From NCBI RefSeq assembly GCF_019654955.1, contig NZ_BPEV01000004.1:62001-126000 (forward strand): a DNA stretch of 64,000 nt, read 5' to 3'. Below are positions 32,667 through 37,929 of this stretch, piece by piece. This DNA is from Shewanella sp. KT0246 (GTDB lineage: Bacteria > Pseudomonadota > Gammaproteobacteria > Enterobacterales > Shewanellaceae). The notes beneath the pieces are model-generated. The model searched no databases. It was not told the DNA's origin and saw nothing but the letters and a program-made list of their open reading frames with translations. The translations under genes and the position numbers were made by a program. Each line of letters begins with the position of its first letter. The first letter of the stretch is position 1.

Positions 32667-32811
32667 CAACTTAGGGAGTCAATTTATAAAATGTTCTGGA
32701 ATGAATAACCTTAGCAAGTATAAAAAAACCACAACTAAATGAGAATAATATTTATTTACGTTGTAAATTTTGCTATTTTATCATCAAGTCCATGACGTAG
32801 TAGGCATTACA

Positions 32812-33234
32812 GTGAGTTCAAAAAGCGCGCTAAAAAAGCTAAAGAAGAAGTCAAAAAAATTGACCAATAAGTCATTAAAGCAATTGAATGCGTTAACGGC
32901 AAACACCAGTAAAGTCACCTTGCTTAATCCGCAACTAAAGCAAGAGCTTAATCAGTTGTCAGGACAAGTTGTTGGTAATGTTGTATCGGAACTTATTCAG
33001 CCACTCAATCCAGTTTTATCATGGTTTAATGACAGTGGGCAGCCATCTCATATTGCGCCTGTTAGCCGCGTAAAAATGCCTATCTCTACAGCAAAACCAG
33101 CAGCGACAAACGCCGTCCAAATTCAGCCACGTTCGATTGCGCAACTGCCGCTAAAAACGCCACCTTGTAAACGCTGTCCAGCACTCGCTGGGGGGAATTG
33201 TAAATGTGCGATGAAAAAATTTAATCTGAATTAA
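32812..33234 (+). CDS. Small lysine-rich protein with a Cys-cluster tail, unknown
   Basis: About 140 residues if started at the GTG at 32812; a TTG at 32770 is an alternative, and neither has a strong ribosome site. The N-terminus is very basic (KSALKKLKKKSKKLTNKSLK). The middle is a phasin-like amphipathic stretch and the tail ends with a CxxC-x7-CxC cluster (CKRCPALAGGNCKC), suited to bind a metal ion. It converges on the HMA-like gene at 33242, with 7 bp between them, at the edge of the Fez-like cluster. It may belong to that system, but I do not recognise the family. Confidence 0.6.
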   Translation: MSSKSALKKLKKKSKKLTNKSLKQLNALTANTSKVTLLNPQLKQELNQLSGQVVGNVVSELIQPLNPVLSWFNDSGQPSHIAPVSRVKMPISTAKPAATNAVQIQPRSIAQLPLKTPPCKRCPALAGGNCKCAMKKFNLN

Positions 33235-33241
33235 TAACCCA

Positions 33242-33601
33242 TTAAACGCTTAGAATGACGCGGCTGATTGATGGCCCAACGAGGCGAGATAATGCAATAC
33301 CTGCCATTCCTTTTACTAGCGTTTTAGTACCCGCAATAACAGCACTCTCAACGAATGATGACTTACCGCTTTCAACTAGCCAATCATGACTTTCTAGAAT
33401 TTCTAACAAGCTTTCACAATCAAGCTCATTATCATCAAAGGTAATTGCAACTGAACCAGCATGGCATTGGTGTTTAATATGTTTGATAGCATCAATTTCA
33501 TTTAGCTGCTCAATAAGCTCAACAACTTGATCTTTATTGTGGCGAATATATTCAGATCTCACTCTTAATCTTTGCTTTGTTTTATGAACATAAACACTCA
33601 T
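33242..33601 (-). CDS. HMA-like small protein, divergent from the Fez-like operon
   Basis: 119 residues. The first ~75 form a ferredoxin-like HMA-type fold (QRLRVRSEYIRHNKDQVVEL, then AGSVAITFDDNELDCESLLE) without the CxxC metal motif. A hydrophobic C-terminal segment (GTKTLVKGMAGIALSRLVG) could be a membrane helix with small residues. The pattern resembles the N-terminus of the P-type ATPase and the 33959 protein. An exact Fur box starts 17 bp before its ATG, so it should be iron-repressed. Function inferred: membrane-associated partner of the iron compartment. Confidence 0.75.
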   Translation of the reverse strand: MSVYVHKTKQRLRVRSEYIRHNKDQVVELIEQLNEIDAIKHIKHQCHAGSVAITFDDNELDCESLLEILESHDWLVESGKSSFVESAVIAGTKTLVKGMAGIALSRLVGPSISRVILSV

Positions 33602-33617
33602 CGCACACCTCTATAAT

Positions 33618-33632
33618 TGATAATCATTATCA
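33618..33632. promoter_or_regulatory. Fur box (exact 7-1-7 consensus)
   Basis: TGATAATCATTATCA is a perfect inverted repeat and equals the Fur 7-1-7 consensus (TGATAAT-N-ATTATCA). It lies between the divergent HMA-like gene (start 33601) and the operon beginning at 33959. The rest of 33633-33958 holds no credible gene; a TATAAT box sits at 33947-33952. Confidence 0.88.
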
Positions 33633-33958
33633 TTACACTAATGTTATCACTGACAGCAATTGTACGTAAAGCACTCGATCACATTTTTGACCTTCAAACA
33701 TTATTTCTTTATCTCTGTTCTGCTTGCTTCAATAACACACCCCTTTTCCGCACAATCTTTACAAAACTTACAAAACCAAGTTTGTTTCAGCATAAATTGA
33801 TTAAAGCATTCAATATCATCAACTTAATACCACTCCCTACAGCACTTTTTCGCTCAACTTCAAATTTAAACGGATGATAAACGATCCCTGCCATAAAAAT
33901 TCACTCAAACGTGATCTCAAACAAATAACTCAAGATTTTCGGTTCGTATAATGCTCGA

Positions 33959-34291
33959 ATGGACAAATATCTAAACAAAGTTATCAAAATGAGACGCTGG
34001 GTCATGATAGCTCATCATATTCCCGGCCGAATTCGTCTCAAATACAAGCTTGGGATCATGTCACACCTGATGCAGTTTAATTTGCAAAATGTTGACGATG
34101 TGATTGCTCAAGTACCCGCTTTTGTCAGTTATAAGATCAATAAATCGACTGGTAGCATCGTCATTGAATACAACGCCAATCTCGTCAAACCTGAGCTGGT
34201 TGATGATCTTTTCGCAGGAACAGATGAGCAGGCAGAACACGCTTATTTCGCCCTTGCTCAGTACTTAAATGCCGAAGGAATTAGAACATGA
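33959..34291 (+). CDS. HMA-like protein with HIPGRIR motif, first gene of the Fez-like operon
   Basis: 110 residues from the ATG at 33959; starts at 33989 or 34004 are equally possible, since none has a ribosome site and a TATAAT box ends only 7 bp before 33959. Starting at 34004 gives MIAHHIPGRIRLKYK, which matches the N-terminus of the ATPase (MIPLRIKHHIPGRIRFKL). The domain lacks the CxxC of classical heavy-metal domains (HMA_2-like). Its last 4 bp overlap the next start (ATGA), so it is translationally coupled to the His/Met-rich gene. Probably an accessory or membrane-docking protein. Confidence 0.78.
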   Translation: MDKYLNKVIKMRRWVMIAHHIPGRIRLKYKLGIMSHLMQFNLQNVDDVIAQVPAFVSYKINKSTGSIVIEYNANLVKPELVDDLFAGTDEQAEHAYFALAQYLNAEGIRT

Positions 34292-35169
34292 GCCATAAAT
34301 ACACATCCGAGGGTTATGCCCCACAGTATGCTCAACAAGGCGACAATCAAAGCGTCCCTCAACAAGAGCAAAATCCGCAAGCTCAGCCACAGCAGGCTCA
34401 AGTACCACCAGAAATGAATCCTTACCAATCACATATGCCTCCAGGTTATGGTTACGGTATGCCGCCAAATGCAGGCTACCCTCACATGCAACACCCTCAT
34501 GCTCATATGCATCCGGGCATGCATCAAGGCATGCAGCATAACCATCCGCATATGCACCCAGGATTTAATGGCCCACACGGGCATCCACACTATCACTCAC
34601 CCTATGCGCAACATCATCCAATGTGGTCACAACCGCACATGATGCCCCCCGCATATTATCCTCACCCTAACATGCCACCTCAGTCAGAAGCTGACGCAAA
34701 TGCAGAGCAAAACGATCCATTTATGGAACAGGCGCAAGCCATGCTCGAACAAGCATTAGGTGAAGACGCAGGCATGTTTAAAGACATATTAGGAAGCTTA
34801 GGTATGAACGATAAAGAATTTTGGAAAGGCGCAATGATTGGCGCTGCAGCCGCATTATTACTTAGCAATGATAAAGTCCGTGGCAAGTTAATGGACGTAG
34901 TATCTGGCGCAGGTGACATGCTCAAAACGGGTGGCGGTAAAGTAAAAGAAACCGCAAGCCAAACAGCGAGTAGCGTTAAAGAAAACGTGACTAACAGCAG
35001 TGAAATCTTTAAAGACACCTACAGTGCGGGTAAAGAAGGTTTTCAAGCATCGGTAGAGCGTCATTATCAAGCACCAGCTGAAGAAGCGACTGCTGAAGCA
35101 GAGCCAGCTCCAACTGAAGAAGCACCAGTGCTAGCAACGCAATCATCAGATGAAATGAAACCAGCATGA
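34288..35169 (+). CDS. His/Met/Pro-rich protein with glycine-zipper (YtxH-like) segment
   Basis: 293 residues. Residues 1-45 are Gln/Pro-rich; about 45-130 are extremely rich in His, Met, Pro and Tyr (HPHAHMHPGMHQGMQHNHPH and similar), a likely metal-binding region. Residues about 140-175 are acidic and helical. A short hydrophobic segment follows (FWKGAMIGAAAALLLSNDKV) with small-residue packing, then an amphipathic Ala/Lys/Thr helix and an acidic Ala/Pro/Glu tail. AAGGA precedes the ATG; the start overlaps the previous stop and the stop overlaps the next start. Role inferred: membrane-associated iron-binding or scaffold protein of a ferrosome-like compartment. Confidence 0.82.
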   Translation: MSHKYTSEGYAPQYAQQGDNQSVPQQEQNPQAQPQQAQVPPEMNPYQSHMPPGYGYGMPPNAGYPHMQHPHAHMHPGMHQGMQHNHPHMHPGFNGPHGHPHYHSPYAQHHPMWSQPHMMPPAYYPHPNMPPQSEADANAEQNDPFMEQAQAMLEQALGEDAGMFKDILGSLGMNDKEFWKGAMIGAAAALLLSNDKVRGKLMDVVSGAGDMLKTGGGKVKETASQTASSVKENVTNSSEIFKDTYSAGKEGFQASVERHYQAPAEEATAEAEPAPTEEAPVLATQSSDEMKPA

Positions 35170-35471
35170 GTAATACATACAGCCAACTAAGCCCTGCCAG
35201 CCGTGCTTTGCTTGTCGGTGCCATGGTAGGCGGTGGCGCCTCGGTCGCTACCCAGTGGAAATCTTACAAACAAGGTGAGATAGAAGCAGAAATGATGGTG
35301 TCTAAGGCGACTAAATCAGCCATTCAAGCGGCGGCAATCAGTGGGCTCACCACTTATGCTGCTGGTAAAATGGCTGGCCGTCCAGTCTTGTCATTAATGA
35401 CGATTTTGGCTGCAGGCGCAGCGGGACTTTACCTCGTCGATCAATTTTCAGGAAAAAATCACCATGAATAA
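35166..35471 (+). CDS. Small glycine-zipper membrane protein
   Basis: 101 residues with two or three hydrophobic segments rich in Gly and Ala (ALLVGAMVGGGASVATQW, AIQAAAISGLTTYAAGKMAG, LMTILAAGAAGLYLVDQF) and a short His-containing tail (GKNHHE). Such small-residue helices pack tightly and can curve or tile a membrane, as proposed for magnetosome and ferrosome proteins. It overlaps its neighbours on both sides in the operon. I cannot assign a named family. Confidence 0.75.
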   Translation: MSNTYSQLSPASRALLVGAMVGGGASVATQWKSYKQGEIEAEMMVSKATKSAIQAAAISGLTTYAAGKMAGRPVLSLMTILAAGAAGLYLVDQFSGKNHHE

Positions 35472-35778
35472 TTATCCTCCTTATGGCTATGGTTACGGTT
35501 ATGGCCCAGCAGGTCAGGCTCAACAGGCACAGTCTGCTCCGACTGAAAACGCTGCACCATATAAAGCACAAAACACCAAAACCCACTTTATGATGGGATT
35601 AGCCGCAGGCGCTGCCGTGGCGTATTTGATCAGCAATAAAAAGGTGCAACAAAGCGTGGCATCAACCGGCGAAAAAGCCTGGTCTACAGTTCGCGGAGAA
35701 GTTGAAGAGCTTAAAGAGCGCTTAGAAGACACCCAAGCTGAGTTAGATTATTACCGTAATCTGCATAAAGGTGAATAA
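35464..35778 (+). CDS. YtxH-like small membrane protein
   Basis: 104 residues. The N-terminus is Tyr/Gly/Pro-rich (NNYPPYGYGYGYGPAGQAQQ), like a short form of the His/Met-rich protein. The hydrophobic segment (HFMMGLAAGAAVAYLISNKK) shares the pattern GAA-x4-L-(L/I)SN-x-KV with that protein at 34288, so the two are probably related by duplication. A charged coiled-coil-like tail follows (GEVEELKERLEDTQAELDYY). AGGA precedes the ATG; the stop overlaps the ATPase start. Confidence 0.78.
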   Translation: MNNYPPYGYGYGYGPAGQAQQAQSAPTENAAPYKAQNTKTHFMMGLAAGAAVAYLISNKKVQQSVASTGEKAWSTVRGEVEELKERLEDTQAELDYYRNLHKGE

Positions 35779-37859
35779 TGATCCCGTTGCGAATTAAGCA
35801 CCATATTCCGGGTCGTATACGCTTCAAGCTCAATCGCGCAACCAAGCTTGAAGATACTGGCGAGTGGATCAAAAAAAGCGTCATGGTGATCCAAGGCGTC
35901 AGTGCTGTGCGGGTCAATGAAGCCGCTCACTCGATTGTGATTGATTACGATGACAACTTGCTTGAGCCTCACACTATCGAGGCTAGGCTAACCCAGATTG
36001 ATCTTAGCGAAGCTGAGCTTGAAGAGTCTGAACACCAATTTACTCGTGGTGACATTGCCATGAATGTCATTGGTACTTTATCAGCGGCTTTGCTGCCTAA
36101 TAAATGGGGGGCTTTGACCACTGCCACTCTGATAGCACCGACCCTTGCTGAAGGCATTTCAGAGCTGAAGCAAAAACGTGTATCAGTTGAAGTGCTTGAT
36201 GCTATCGCCGTAGGTTTATCAGCCTATCGCGGAGATTATCGCACTGCGATGATGACCCAAACGCTGATTAGTCTTGGCGAATTCATGGAGCAAGAAACCT
36301 GTCGTAAAAGTGACAAGTTGCTCGCTGATTTGATGATCCCACAAGAGTCTATCGTTTGGCAGATCATGCCTGATGGCACTCGCTTGCAGGTGAGCTCAAC
36401 TGAACTTGCGGTGAACGACATTATCGAATTAGTTCCAGGTGACCCTGTTCCGATTGATGGCGTTGTCATTGATGGCGCTGCGCTAATTAATCAGTCAGCG
36501 TTGACGGGTGAAAGTGTTCCTATTCGACGAGAACTCGATGCCGTTGTGTATTCAGGTTCTAGCGTGCATGAAGGCACGATTAAGGTCAGAGTTGATAAGG
36601 TCGGTAGTGAAGCGACTACAGCTAAAATTGCCCAACTGATTTACGACTCTCTGAGCGAAAAAAGCGAGATCCAGCAAGTCACCCAAGACATGGCGAATCG
36701 CCGCGTAAAAATTACCTTAGGGATCGGTGCTGCAGTATTTGCACTGACTCAAGATATTAATCGTGTCGCATCTGTCTTTTTGGTCGATTACTCCTGTGCG
36801 CTAAAACTCAGTACACCAGTGACGTTCAAGTCCATTATGTACCGCGCCGCTCAGCAAGGCATCTTACTCAAAGGCGGTAGCGCCATTGAAAAGCTAGCCG
36901 AAGTCGATGTGTGTGTATTCGATAAAACTGGCACCTTAACCCATGGCGATATGGAGGTCACCGACGTGGTGCCATTCAATTGCCAAGGTGAACACTGCGC
37001 TCGAGATTTATTGGCCATTGCCGCATCAGTTGAAGAACACAGTAACCACCCGCTTTCACAAGCGGTAGTGAATGCTGCCAAACATCATCAACTACCCCAT
37101 ATTGATCACGGTGAAGTCGAATATGTCATTGCTCATGGTCTTAAAAGTACAGTCAATGAACACTGCCTTGTTATGGGCAGCCGTCATTTCCTAGAGTCAC
37201 ATGAAAACGTCAACTTTGAGATCTATGAAGAAGAAATTCGTCAATATGAAGCCAAAGGGCGTCATTTAATTTTCATCTCTCATCAAGGCGAACTGATGGG
37301 AATGATTGGCCTTAGAGATCACTTACGTGAAGATGTTCATCAAACCCTTGAGGACTTAAGGCAACTTGGTATCAAGCATTTAATGATGATTTCTGGCGAC
37401 AGTGTTTATAAAGCCAATATGCTGGGCGATGATCTTAAATTAGATAAAGTGTTTGCCGAAGCGACACCTGAAACCAAGTCCACCATCATTGAGTCTTTAC
37501 AACAACAAGGCCATAAAGTGATGTTTGTGGGTGATGGCGTCAATGATGCTCCAGCCCTGACCAAAGCTAACGTTGGTGTAGCCATGTGCAAAGGCACAGA
37601 GCTTGCCAGACAAGCTGCCGATGTCGTGTTACTGCAAGATAGGTTATACGGTGTTGCTGAAACCTATCAGCTGTCTCAAATCGCAATGAAGATGATCAAC
37701 AGCAACATAAAAGTCGCTGAATACGTCAACAGTGGCATTATGCTCGCTGCTGCACTTGGCTGGCTTAATCCAACCATGAGTGCTTTATTGCATAACGGGA
37801 CAACGTTAGGGATTCTGGCTCGTTCGGTCGCCATCAAGAATGGCCCGCGGATCGGCTAG
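35778..37859 (+). CDS. fezB: P1B-type metal ATPase, ferrosome FezB-like
   Basis: 693 residues. The N-terminal HMA-like domain (HHIPGRIRFKL, residues 8-18) lacks CxxC. Few N-terminal membrane helices are present. Then come TGES (243-246), the transmembrane metal motif SCALKLSTP (339-347) in place of the usual CPC, DKTGT (phosphorylated Asp382), the HP motif in SNHPLSQA, and GDGVND (585-590). Length and topology resemble mycobacterial CtpC. SCA-type motifs and the HxPGRxR start fit the P1B-6 group that includes FezB, which loads iron into ferrosomes in Shewanella putrefaciens and others. It is the last gene of the overlapping operon and is followed by a terminator. The gene symbol rests on recall and context, not on a search. 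Confidence 0.8.
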   Translation: MIPLRIKHHIPGRIRFKLNRATKLEDTGEWIKKSVMVIQGVSAVRVNEAAHSIVIDYDDNLLEPHTIEARLTQIDLSEAELEESEHQFTRGDIAMNVIGTLSAALLPNKWGALTTATLIAPTLAEGISELKQKRVSVEVLDAIAVGLSAYRGDYRTAMMTQTLISLGEFMEQETCRKSDKLLADLMIPQESIVWQIMPDGTRLQVSSTELAVNDIIELVPGDPVPIDGVVIDGAALINQSALTGESVPIRRELDAVVYSGSSVHEGTIKVRVDKVGSEATTAKIAQLIYDSLSEKSEIQQVTQDMANRRVKITLGIGAAVFALTQDINRVASVFLVDYSCALKLSTPVTFKSIMYRAAQQGILLKGGSAIEKLAEVDVCVFDKTGTLTHGDMEVTDVVPFNCQGEHCARDLLAIAASVEEHSNHPLSQAVVNAAKHHQLPHIDHGEVEYVIAHGLKSTVNEHCLVMGSRHFLESHENVNFEIYEEEIRQYEAKGRHLIFISHQGELMGMIGLRDHLREDVHQTLEDLRQLGIKHLMMISGDSVYKANMLGDDLKLDKVFAEATPETKSTIIESLQQQGHKVMFVGDGVNDAPALTKANVGVAMCKGTELARQAADVVLLQDRLYGVAETYQLSQIAMKMINSNIKVAEYVNSGIMLAAALGWLNPTMSALLHNGTTLGILARSVAIKNGPRIG

Positions 37860-37900: not shown

Positions 37901-37929
37901 AAAAAAGCCCGGTGTAACTGGGCTTTTTT
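37901..37929 (+). terminator. Rho-independent terminator of the Fez-like operon
   Basis: AAAAAAGCCC and GGGCTTTTTT pair around a 9-nt loop, about 40 bp past the ATPase stop codon. Confidence 0.92.

Follow-up and report, generated by a model that had tools for sequence, protein, structure and literature searches.

Ferrosomes have been characterised only recently, and we know of no role assigned to their small proteins. The fez cluster of Shewanella putrefaciens is presumably a six-gene operon, and we take a basic PGRxR motif at the N terminus of FezB and its companion proteins to be a mark of Fez systems. S. oneidensis MR-1 is not known to have fez genes. Rhodopseudomonas palustris CGA009 is reported to form ferrosomes from six fez genes (PMC12016538), and FezC is reported as a haem-b cytochrome (PMC10979944). 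The Clostridioides difficile cluster is described with FezA and FezB, both repressed by Fur (PMC12574912), and FezC is thus not universal. The cluster described here comes from Shewanella sp. KT0246, whose genome measures 4.85 Mb. It lies in a stretch of 64,000 nucleotides of contig NZ_BPEV01000004.1, called the window below, and its last gene encodes FezB, a P1B ATPase.

The cluster is best read as a Fur-controlled ferrosome (Fez) cluster representing a marine gammaproteobacterial subtype, to which we give a probability of about 0.82. This reading draws on gene content, homology, conservation and a Fur box, all of them observed, and from these the organelle, membrane insertion and every biochemical step are predicted. 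Loci with the gene subtype of the studied locus are called window type, and six-gene fez operons (genomes G075, G613 and G649, and Azospirillum) are called canonical. A first-pass annotation made from the sequence letters had already pointed to Fez at this place. The present analysis adds homology to the magnetosome protein MamC, the neighbouring gene p32812, the Fur box and the result that no FezC-like gene is found nearby.

FezB and the composition of the operon

The core of the cluster is a run of five plus-strand frames (hmaF, HMrich, a gene for a 101-residue protein, a YtxH-like gene and fezB) that overlap by 4, 4, 8 and 1 bases, with hmaR diverging from them (Table 1). This is the arrangement that the first-pass annotation had drawn, and its HMA-like calls are borne out by matches above the cut-off to HMA_2 (PF19991) in hmaR, hmaF and the N terminus of FezB. 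A tblastn comparison with 21 named loci from Shewanella, Vibrio, Veronia, Photobacterium and Endozoicomonas finds all six genes, identically ordered and oriented, in every one. S. fidelis and S. electrodiphila are among the carriers.

FezB begins MIPLRIKHHIPGRIRFK and has a HIPGRIR stretch near its N terminus; corresponding basic motifs are present in hmaF and hmaR (Table 1). YSCALKL occupies the place of the CPC found in Escherichia coli CopA and ZntA, so that both motifs read by the first-pass annotation, an HxPGRxR start and SCALKL for CPC, are confirmed and the CPC of Cu/Zn P1B ATPases is missing from FezB. Across 23 fez-type rows, transmembrane segment 4 (TM4) follows the pattern (Y/F)(S/A)C(A/G/P)(L/I/V)K, with Arg for Lys in Endozoicomonas. 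CPC stands in E. coli CopA and ZntA, in three plasmid pumps and in the other P1B pump of the same genome, and three pumps have neither CPC nor the fez pattern: those of Deinococcus (SCVLK), Priestia (ICGIK) and Gloeothece (GTGIR).

The P1B tree separates these groups. It was built from 32 rows, with near-copies and L072 (a stop in frame) omitted; CtpC and a named S. putrefaciens FezB are not among the rows, and G075, a Shewanella genome with a six-gene operon, stood in for the latter. All 23 fez-type FezB rows fall into a single clade (100/98) and the six CPC pumps into a separate one (100/99), with the Deinococcus, Gloeothece and Priestia pumps on long branches outside the fez rows. Within the fez-type clade, the 13 window-type rows form a nested clade (100/100), and the proteins of G075, G613, G649, Azospirillum and Arcobacter form another (100/99). 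The phylogeny against CopA and ZntA that the first-pass annotation had named as a check thus falls on the Fez side, and together with the Fur box it upholds the assignment at the level of the genes. The genus Shewanella carries both FezB types (G000 and G075), and the placing of Shewanella FezB rows among those of Vibrionaceae, though only at forks with weak support, suggests horizontal transfer.

Most P1B ATPases are exporters, and an inner-membrane system for efflux or detoxification of Cu, Zn, Mn or Ni, with metal-binding accessories and no organelle, has to be weighed. FezB lies above the NCBIfam cut-offs of the generic heavy-metal and Cd subfamily models, and the N-terminal half of HMrich, with 28 Pro, 20 His and 14 Met in residues 1–150, would suit such a role. 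We nevertheless consider efflux unlikely, given the SCAL of TM4 in place of CPC, the grouping of FezB with fez operons and the Fur box in the divergent region.

The other genes also resemble those of fez operons. The operons of G075, G613 and G649 encode two HMA_2 proteins, one of them FezC-like with a DUF4405-like end, besides two small proteins, a YtxH-like protein and FezB, and Azospirillum brasilense has the same six-gene layout. The matches of the G075 FezC-like protein to DUF4405 (0.0033) and HMA_2 (0.0073) are both below cut-off; in the other operons, FezC-like genes were recognised by eye and with a model made from such genes. In all four operons, one small protein is encoded just upstream of the YtxH-like gene. 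The window operon likewise holds HMA_2, YtxH-like and small Gly/Ala-rich proteins, and the C terminus of its YtxH-like protein, EVEELKERLEDTQAELDYYRN, is nearly invariant within the subtype.

The first-pass annotation had named the His/Met-rich protein and the YtxH-like one as candidates for new parts of the organelle. This part of its proposal falls, because distant fez clusters carry counterparts. The clusters L068 and L069 comprise an hmaF-like gene, a gene whose Pro/Tyr-rich product ends in EFWKGAxxGAAA, and YtxH-like, fezB, hmaR-like and FezC-like genes, the last assigned by eye and with no NCBIfam match. Counterparts of HMrich are found in L068, L069 and L071, and weakly in L070. In the script models behind the HMrich and YtxH comparison, L017 was left out throughout and L023 and L025 were left out for HMrich, and the YtxH row of L025 lacks a start codon. 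With near-copies omitted, alignments A1, A3 and A4 hold 17, 14 and 16 rows.

Table 1. Features of the cluster and its borders, in window coordinates
Feature	Position	Strand	Description
p32812	32812..33234	+	140 residues, lysine-rich, predicted helical, C-terminal PPCKRCPALAGGNCKCA tail; convergent with hmaR
hmaR	33242..33601	-	119-residue HMA_2 protein with KQRLRVR N terminus; PF19991 9.3e-10; diverges from the operon
Fur-box palindrome TGATAATCATTATCA	33618..33632		16 bases upstream of the hmaR start codon
hmaF	33959..34291	+	110-residue HMA_2 protein with HHIPGRIRLK motif; PF19991 7e-8; first gene of the operon
HMrich	34288..35169	+	293 residues; N-terminal half His/Met/Pro-rich, C-terminal half with EFWKGAxxGAAA
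MamC-family protein	35166..35471	+	101 residues; NF038051 3.3e-7; candidate two-helix hairpin by analogy with MamC
YtxH-like protein	35464..35778	+	104 residues; YtxH 0.0051, below cut-off; alignment A3
FezB, P1B ATPase	35778..37859	+	HMA_2 N terminus with HHIPGRIRFK; TM4 YSCALK
Likely intrinsic terminator AAAAAAGCCC...GGGCTTTTTT	37901..37929	+	Read by eye; the terminator scan did not report it

An Rfam scan of the window at the gathering threshold gave no match.

The MamC-family protein

MamC, a protein of 12.4 kDa, is predicted to have two transmembrane helices and a loop in contact with magnetite. It is reported to be conserved in most magnetotactic alphaproteobacteria, and its deletion alone to leave crystals of normal size and shape (PMC3905215). 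Glu66 and Asp70 of the loop have been discussed as iron-templating residues (PMC6584501).

By profile comparison, the 101-residue protein is homologous to MamC/Mms13 over the helix-loop-helix core. An hhalign comparison of its family with nine magnetosome MamC proteins gives a probability of 97.4% and an E value of 1.6e-11 over 77 ungapped columns, with 36% identity; the same MamC profile gives 0.8% against the YtxH-like profile and 0.2% against the p32812 profile. The nine MamC rows were taken from ten extracted sequences, which came from 13 loci over the cut-off of the NCBIfam MamC model NF038051. This model is matched by all 17 aligned orthologues of the 101-residue protein. Among 398 proteobacterial genomes searched with it at E ≤ 0.01, 28 have a match: 13 over the cut-off, three at 2.1e-7 to 4.5e-6 and twelve at 0.002 or weaker. 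The three intermediate genomes (G457, G000 and G367) are exactly the three of the 398 with a window-type FezB; five with a more distant FezB have no MamC match at 0.01, and none was found in 14 control genomes.

A protein of Arcobacter sp. DSM 115972, P0246, extends the family. Encoded just upstream of a YtxH-like gene, it matches NF038051 at 9.4e-7, and models built from MamC, from the window type and from the canonical position-4 proteins find it at 1.5e-9, 9.4e-9 and 2.2e-8. The best of 2929 reversed open reading frames (ORFs) reached 0.16, 0.13 and 0.38 with these models. Because this intermediate matches all three, the window protein can be linked to the canonical position-4 proteins. Direct homology of the latter to MamC or the window type was rejected, with hhalign probabilities of 5.3%, 3.4% and 2.1% and no NF038051 match; the canonical model scores the window protein at an E value of 54, and the MamC and window-type models find nothing better than 4.4 among the proteins of G075, G613 and G649. 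A mixed model of window-type and four MamC rows scored the Arcobacter protein at 9.8e-13, and its weak canonical matches were discarded because one reversed ORF reached 0.0018. The link also draws on the precomputed Pfam label PF26373.1, which is common to P0121, which is near-identical to the G075 protein, and to 120 listed MamC-like proteins; P0122, the other match of the search that gave P0121, has no Pfam label.

The likeness to MamC could also be convergent, a product of Gly/Ala-rich helix hairpins and not of common descent. Both proteins are small and Gly/Ala-rich, the canonical position-4 proteins match neither directly, and there is no reliable AlphaFold model: that of the 101-residue protein shows three helices at low confidence, with a predicted local distance difference test score (pLDDT) of 55 and a predicted template modelling score (pTM) of 0.28. 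A search of the PDB with the MamC-like profile gave no match. Convergence is improbable all the same in view of the long ungapped alignment, with its far lower scores for two other proteins of the cluster, of the coincidence between the three matches below 1e-5 but under the cut-off and the three window-type FezB genomes, with none of 14 controls matching, and of the Arcobacter protein, which all three models find far below their best reversed ORFs.

Nor does the homology make the locus a remnant or relative of a magnetosome island, which we regard as very improbable. Public records name 10 of 120 listed orthologues "magnetosome protein MamC", fez being absent from the names shown, and the profile homology points the same way. 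The remaining genes of the cluster are, however, of Fez type, and the column equated with Asp70 holds Asp in 9 of 9 MamC rows and in 0 of 17 window-type rows, with Lys in the window. In the column equated with Glu66, 10 of the 17 rows have Glu or Asp, and the window has Met. This numbering was mapped onto the alignment by spacing. The loss of the Asp in the window type would fit a deposit other than magnetite; the Arcobacter and G545 proteins have Asp at the aligned place.

Within a ferrosome cluster, the relation of the small protein to MamC hints that two iron organelles share a part. A wider proposal can be made only tentatively, as we hold it somewhat more likely to be wrong than right. 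The MamC-family protein would be a regular ferrosome part in Gammaproteobacteria, Alphaproteobacteria and Campylobacterota, sitting in the vesicle membrane in contact with the iron mineral and common to ferrosomes and magnetosomes. Magnetosome MamC would have gained its magnetite-templating acidic residues, or part of the Fez branch would have lost them, and the marine subtype would have dropped the FezC cytochrome and would combine the MamC-family protein with a His/Met-rich coat and a Cys-tailed adaptor. If true, a MamC homologue in fez operons would connect the two membrane-bounded iron organelles at the level of sequence and offer a direct test of how ferrosomes handle mineral. Among the publication matches listed, none links MamC to fez, and neither do passages that treat both organelles; Grant 2022 lies outside that scope.

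The fez operon on the Arcobacter sp. DSM 115972 plasmid (L098) also includes an annotated DUF2202 gene at 1836-2519, two genes upstream of the MamC-family gene. We take DUF2202 to be ferritin-like.

Iron control, neighbours and spread of the module

The Fur box between the two divergent HMA genes is the only site in the window with at most one mismatch, where 0.05 would be expected. Perfect sites number three in the whole genome, and a backwards control pattern gives one match per strand. The second perfect site precedes two bacterioferritin genes (TIGR00754, 2.6e-49 and 1.9e-67), and the third precedes a gene for an FbpA-type Fe3+-binding protein (PDB 1q35, 3.5e-121), which in NCBIfam has only below-cut-off matches, to other ABC binding proteins. 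Of 23 intergenic regions, 13 have a box that matches at least 12 of 14 positions, including 7 with a perfect one, and in 18 of the 23 the best match lies 14–18 bases from the hmaR start (L028 counted from the other end). A tenth upstream region beyond the nine other fez regions discussed below, a 1.7-kb stretch of L095, has a best box of 11/14. The Fur box was rejected as a canonical fez feature, as none was found in G075, G613, G649, Azospirillum or Cereibacter.

If the cluster does build ferrosomes, its products may act as follows. As iron falls, Fur would release the divergent promoter region, and FezB would fill vesicles that arise from the inner membrane by pumping ferrous iron across their membrane. 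Carrying metal or handing it over may fall to the two HMA_2 proteins, or their basic stretch may serve to bind membrane. HMrich and the YtxH-like protein would insert through helices rich in glycine and alanine and give the vesicle a coat or its shape, and the His/Met-rich arm of HMrich would bind metal. The MamC-family protein would lie in the vesicle membrane and touch the iron deposit, a role like that proposed for MamC with magnetite, and p32812 is a possible soluble Cys-tailed adaptor or redox or metal protein.

Several observations weigh against a Fur-controlled ferrosome cluster or its parts. The exact HxPGRxR-type pattern occurs in 12 of the 23 fez-type FezB rows, and canonical rows vary it. 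At 30.5 bits (3.3e-7), the 101-residue protein falls short of the curated NF038051 cut-off of 100 bits. A 19-residue hydropathy scan finds one segment above 1.3 in the 101-residue protein and none in HMrich or the YtxH-like protein, which lends little support to membrane helices; of the two small Gly/Ala-zipper membrane proteins proposed by the first-pass annotation, the genes stand, and the membrane nature is a prediction. The Fur box is weak in several Vibrio and Photobacterium rows, where it does no better than shuffles, and in nine other fez upstream regions a strong box is found only in Arcobacter (13/14) and G545 (12/14). Metal specificity is not set by the sequence, and the Met/His-rich arm would also suit copper. 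Finally, no FezC-like (DUF4405) gene was found near the window-type loci. A model built on six FezC-like ends gives no score below 0.026 in the window, in any of the 21 named loci or at other loci of the window type, whereas it picks up the six on which it was built and an 83-residue gene behind Arcobacter fezB (4.6e-6). DUF4405-like proteins occur elsewhere in the genome, and a separately encoded FezC is therefore possible.

The module extends further to the left than first drawn. Its six genes stand as annotated, but the left boundary does not, since p32812 belongs to the cluster in 19 of the 21 named loci. In the other two it is not visible because the contig ends inside hmaR (L017, where hmaR, found in all 21, is partial) or 52 bases beyond it (L020). 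The GTG start of p32812 at 32812 was set from homologues; the longest ORF starts at 32770. At E ≤ 0.001 there are 144 homologues, with no Pfam domain or functional name among the 120 listed, and p32812 itself has no Pfam match above the cut-off. The four Cys of its tail (CKxCPA...CxCAxK) do not vary across an alignment of 52 rows, to which the 120 listed homologues contribute 50. In the structural model (pLDDT 66, pTM 0.26), the first helix and the tail block are confident, the second helix is weaker, and the linker is disordered.

A search of 345 genomes of the order gives strong p32812 matches (E ≤ 7.3e-24) in 11, each of which also encodes a full-length FezB. Matches at 1.4e-12 or weaker turn up in nine more, covering just the C-terminal part in eight, and FezB is matched in none of these nine. 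The idea of a fez-only family was rejected, as small Lys-rich proteins with the same Cys tail are encoded in genomes where FezB has no match. At L084-L092, the tail (CKxCPAL..G.CKCA) ends small, mostly Lys-rich proteins in varied neighbourhoods, the genomes lacking a FezB match except for L090 (G367, with a fez module); no name was found for the motif at these loci. In G367 (L073), a stretch of about 4 kb that holds other ORFs separates the p32812 homologue from hmaR.

A MamC-like protein (E ≤ 1e-4) is found in ten of the same 345 genomes, all among the 13 with full-length FezB. The three without one are G545, with a divergent MamC-family protein behind FezB (NF038051, 1.1e-6), and G613 and G649, with the canonical position-4 protein. 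Seven other FezB matches in the order, at about 1e-120 to 1e-127, span only the ATPase core. Within the genus, FezB is found at E ≤ 1e-100 in 12 of 129 genomes. The FezB of the window is 95% identical to that of Shewanella sp. TC10 and 92% to that of S. electrodiphila. In five further window-type loci of the genus, p32812 has no match in G085 and G109, and hmaR none in G109. For six flanking genes of the window used as queries, close matches adjoin the module in L005 and L006 alone, with weak LysR-type matches (26-32%) in L016, L019, L021 and L024. The module thus behaves as a unit.

Individual loci show further features. Vibrio sp. THAF190c has a window-type FezB, 72.6% identical, on pTHAF190c_a (L095), a 1.7-Mb replicon recorded as a plasmid, in a stretch with no annotated genes. 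A Cereibacter azotoformans plasmid typed as conjugative (L096) carries a distant fez cluster near a FeoA gene, a TonB receptor and a sigma factor/FecR pair. In Vibrio sonorensis (L025), HMrich and fezB are each split over two frames in the assembly, which may be real or a sequencing error. The module of G071 (L028) is flanked by ORFs that resemble transposases by eye, and its HMrich (L028:7765-8694) has tandem PGMQ/PGMY repeats.

Comparison with known systems

The subtype predicts ferrosomes in the marine Vibrio, Photobacterium and Shewanella species that carry it. It also points to exchangeable Fez parts, with MamC-family, EFWKG, YtxH-like and FezB proteins kept and no FezC-like gene found. 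FezC-like genes are present in canonical fez operons, and the FezC/DUF4405 cytochrome is a feature of Desulfovibrio magneticus-type clusters; no such gene was found beside window-type clusters.

With the six-gene fez operons (R. palustris RPA2333-2338, G075, G613, G649 and Azospirillum), the window shares HMA_2, small Gly/Ala-rich and YtxH-like proteins and FezB, and it probably also shares a small MamC-superfamily protein encoded just upstream of the YtxH-like gene. It differs from them in the inversion of one HMA_2 gene, the addition of p32812 and the apparent lack of a FezC-like gene. Where they encode a protein of 80-90 residues (119 in Azospirillum), the window has a large His/Met-rich protein, and its FezB is only 37% identical to that of G075. 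By its description, fezAB of C. difficile has in common a FezB-type ATPase, a membrane protein and Fur control (PMC12574912), and the window has more genes. From MamC/Mms13 of alphaproteobacterial magnetosomes, the window protein differs in its score below the curated cut-off, in the change of an invariant Asp to Lys and in having Fez genes and not mam or mms genes as neighbours, yet it is colinear with them, ungapped, over 77 residues.

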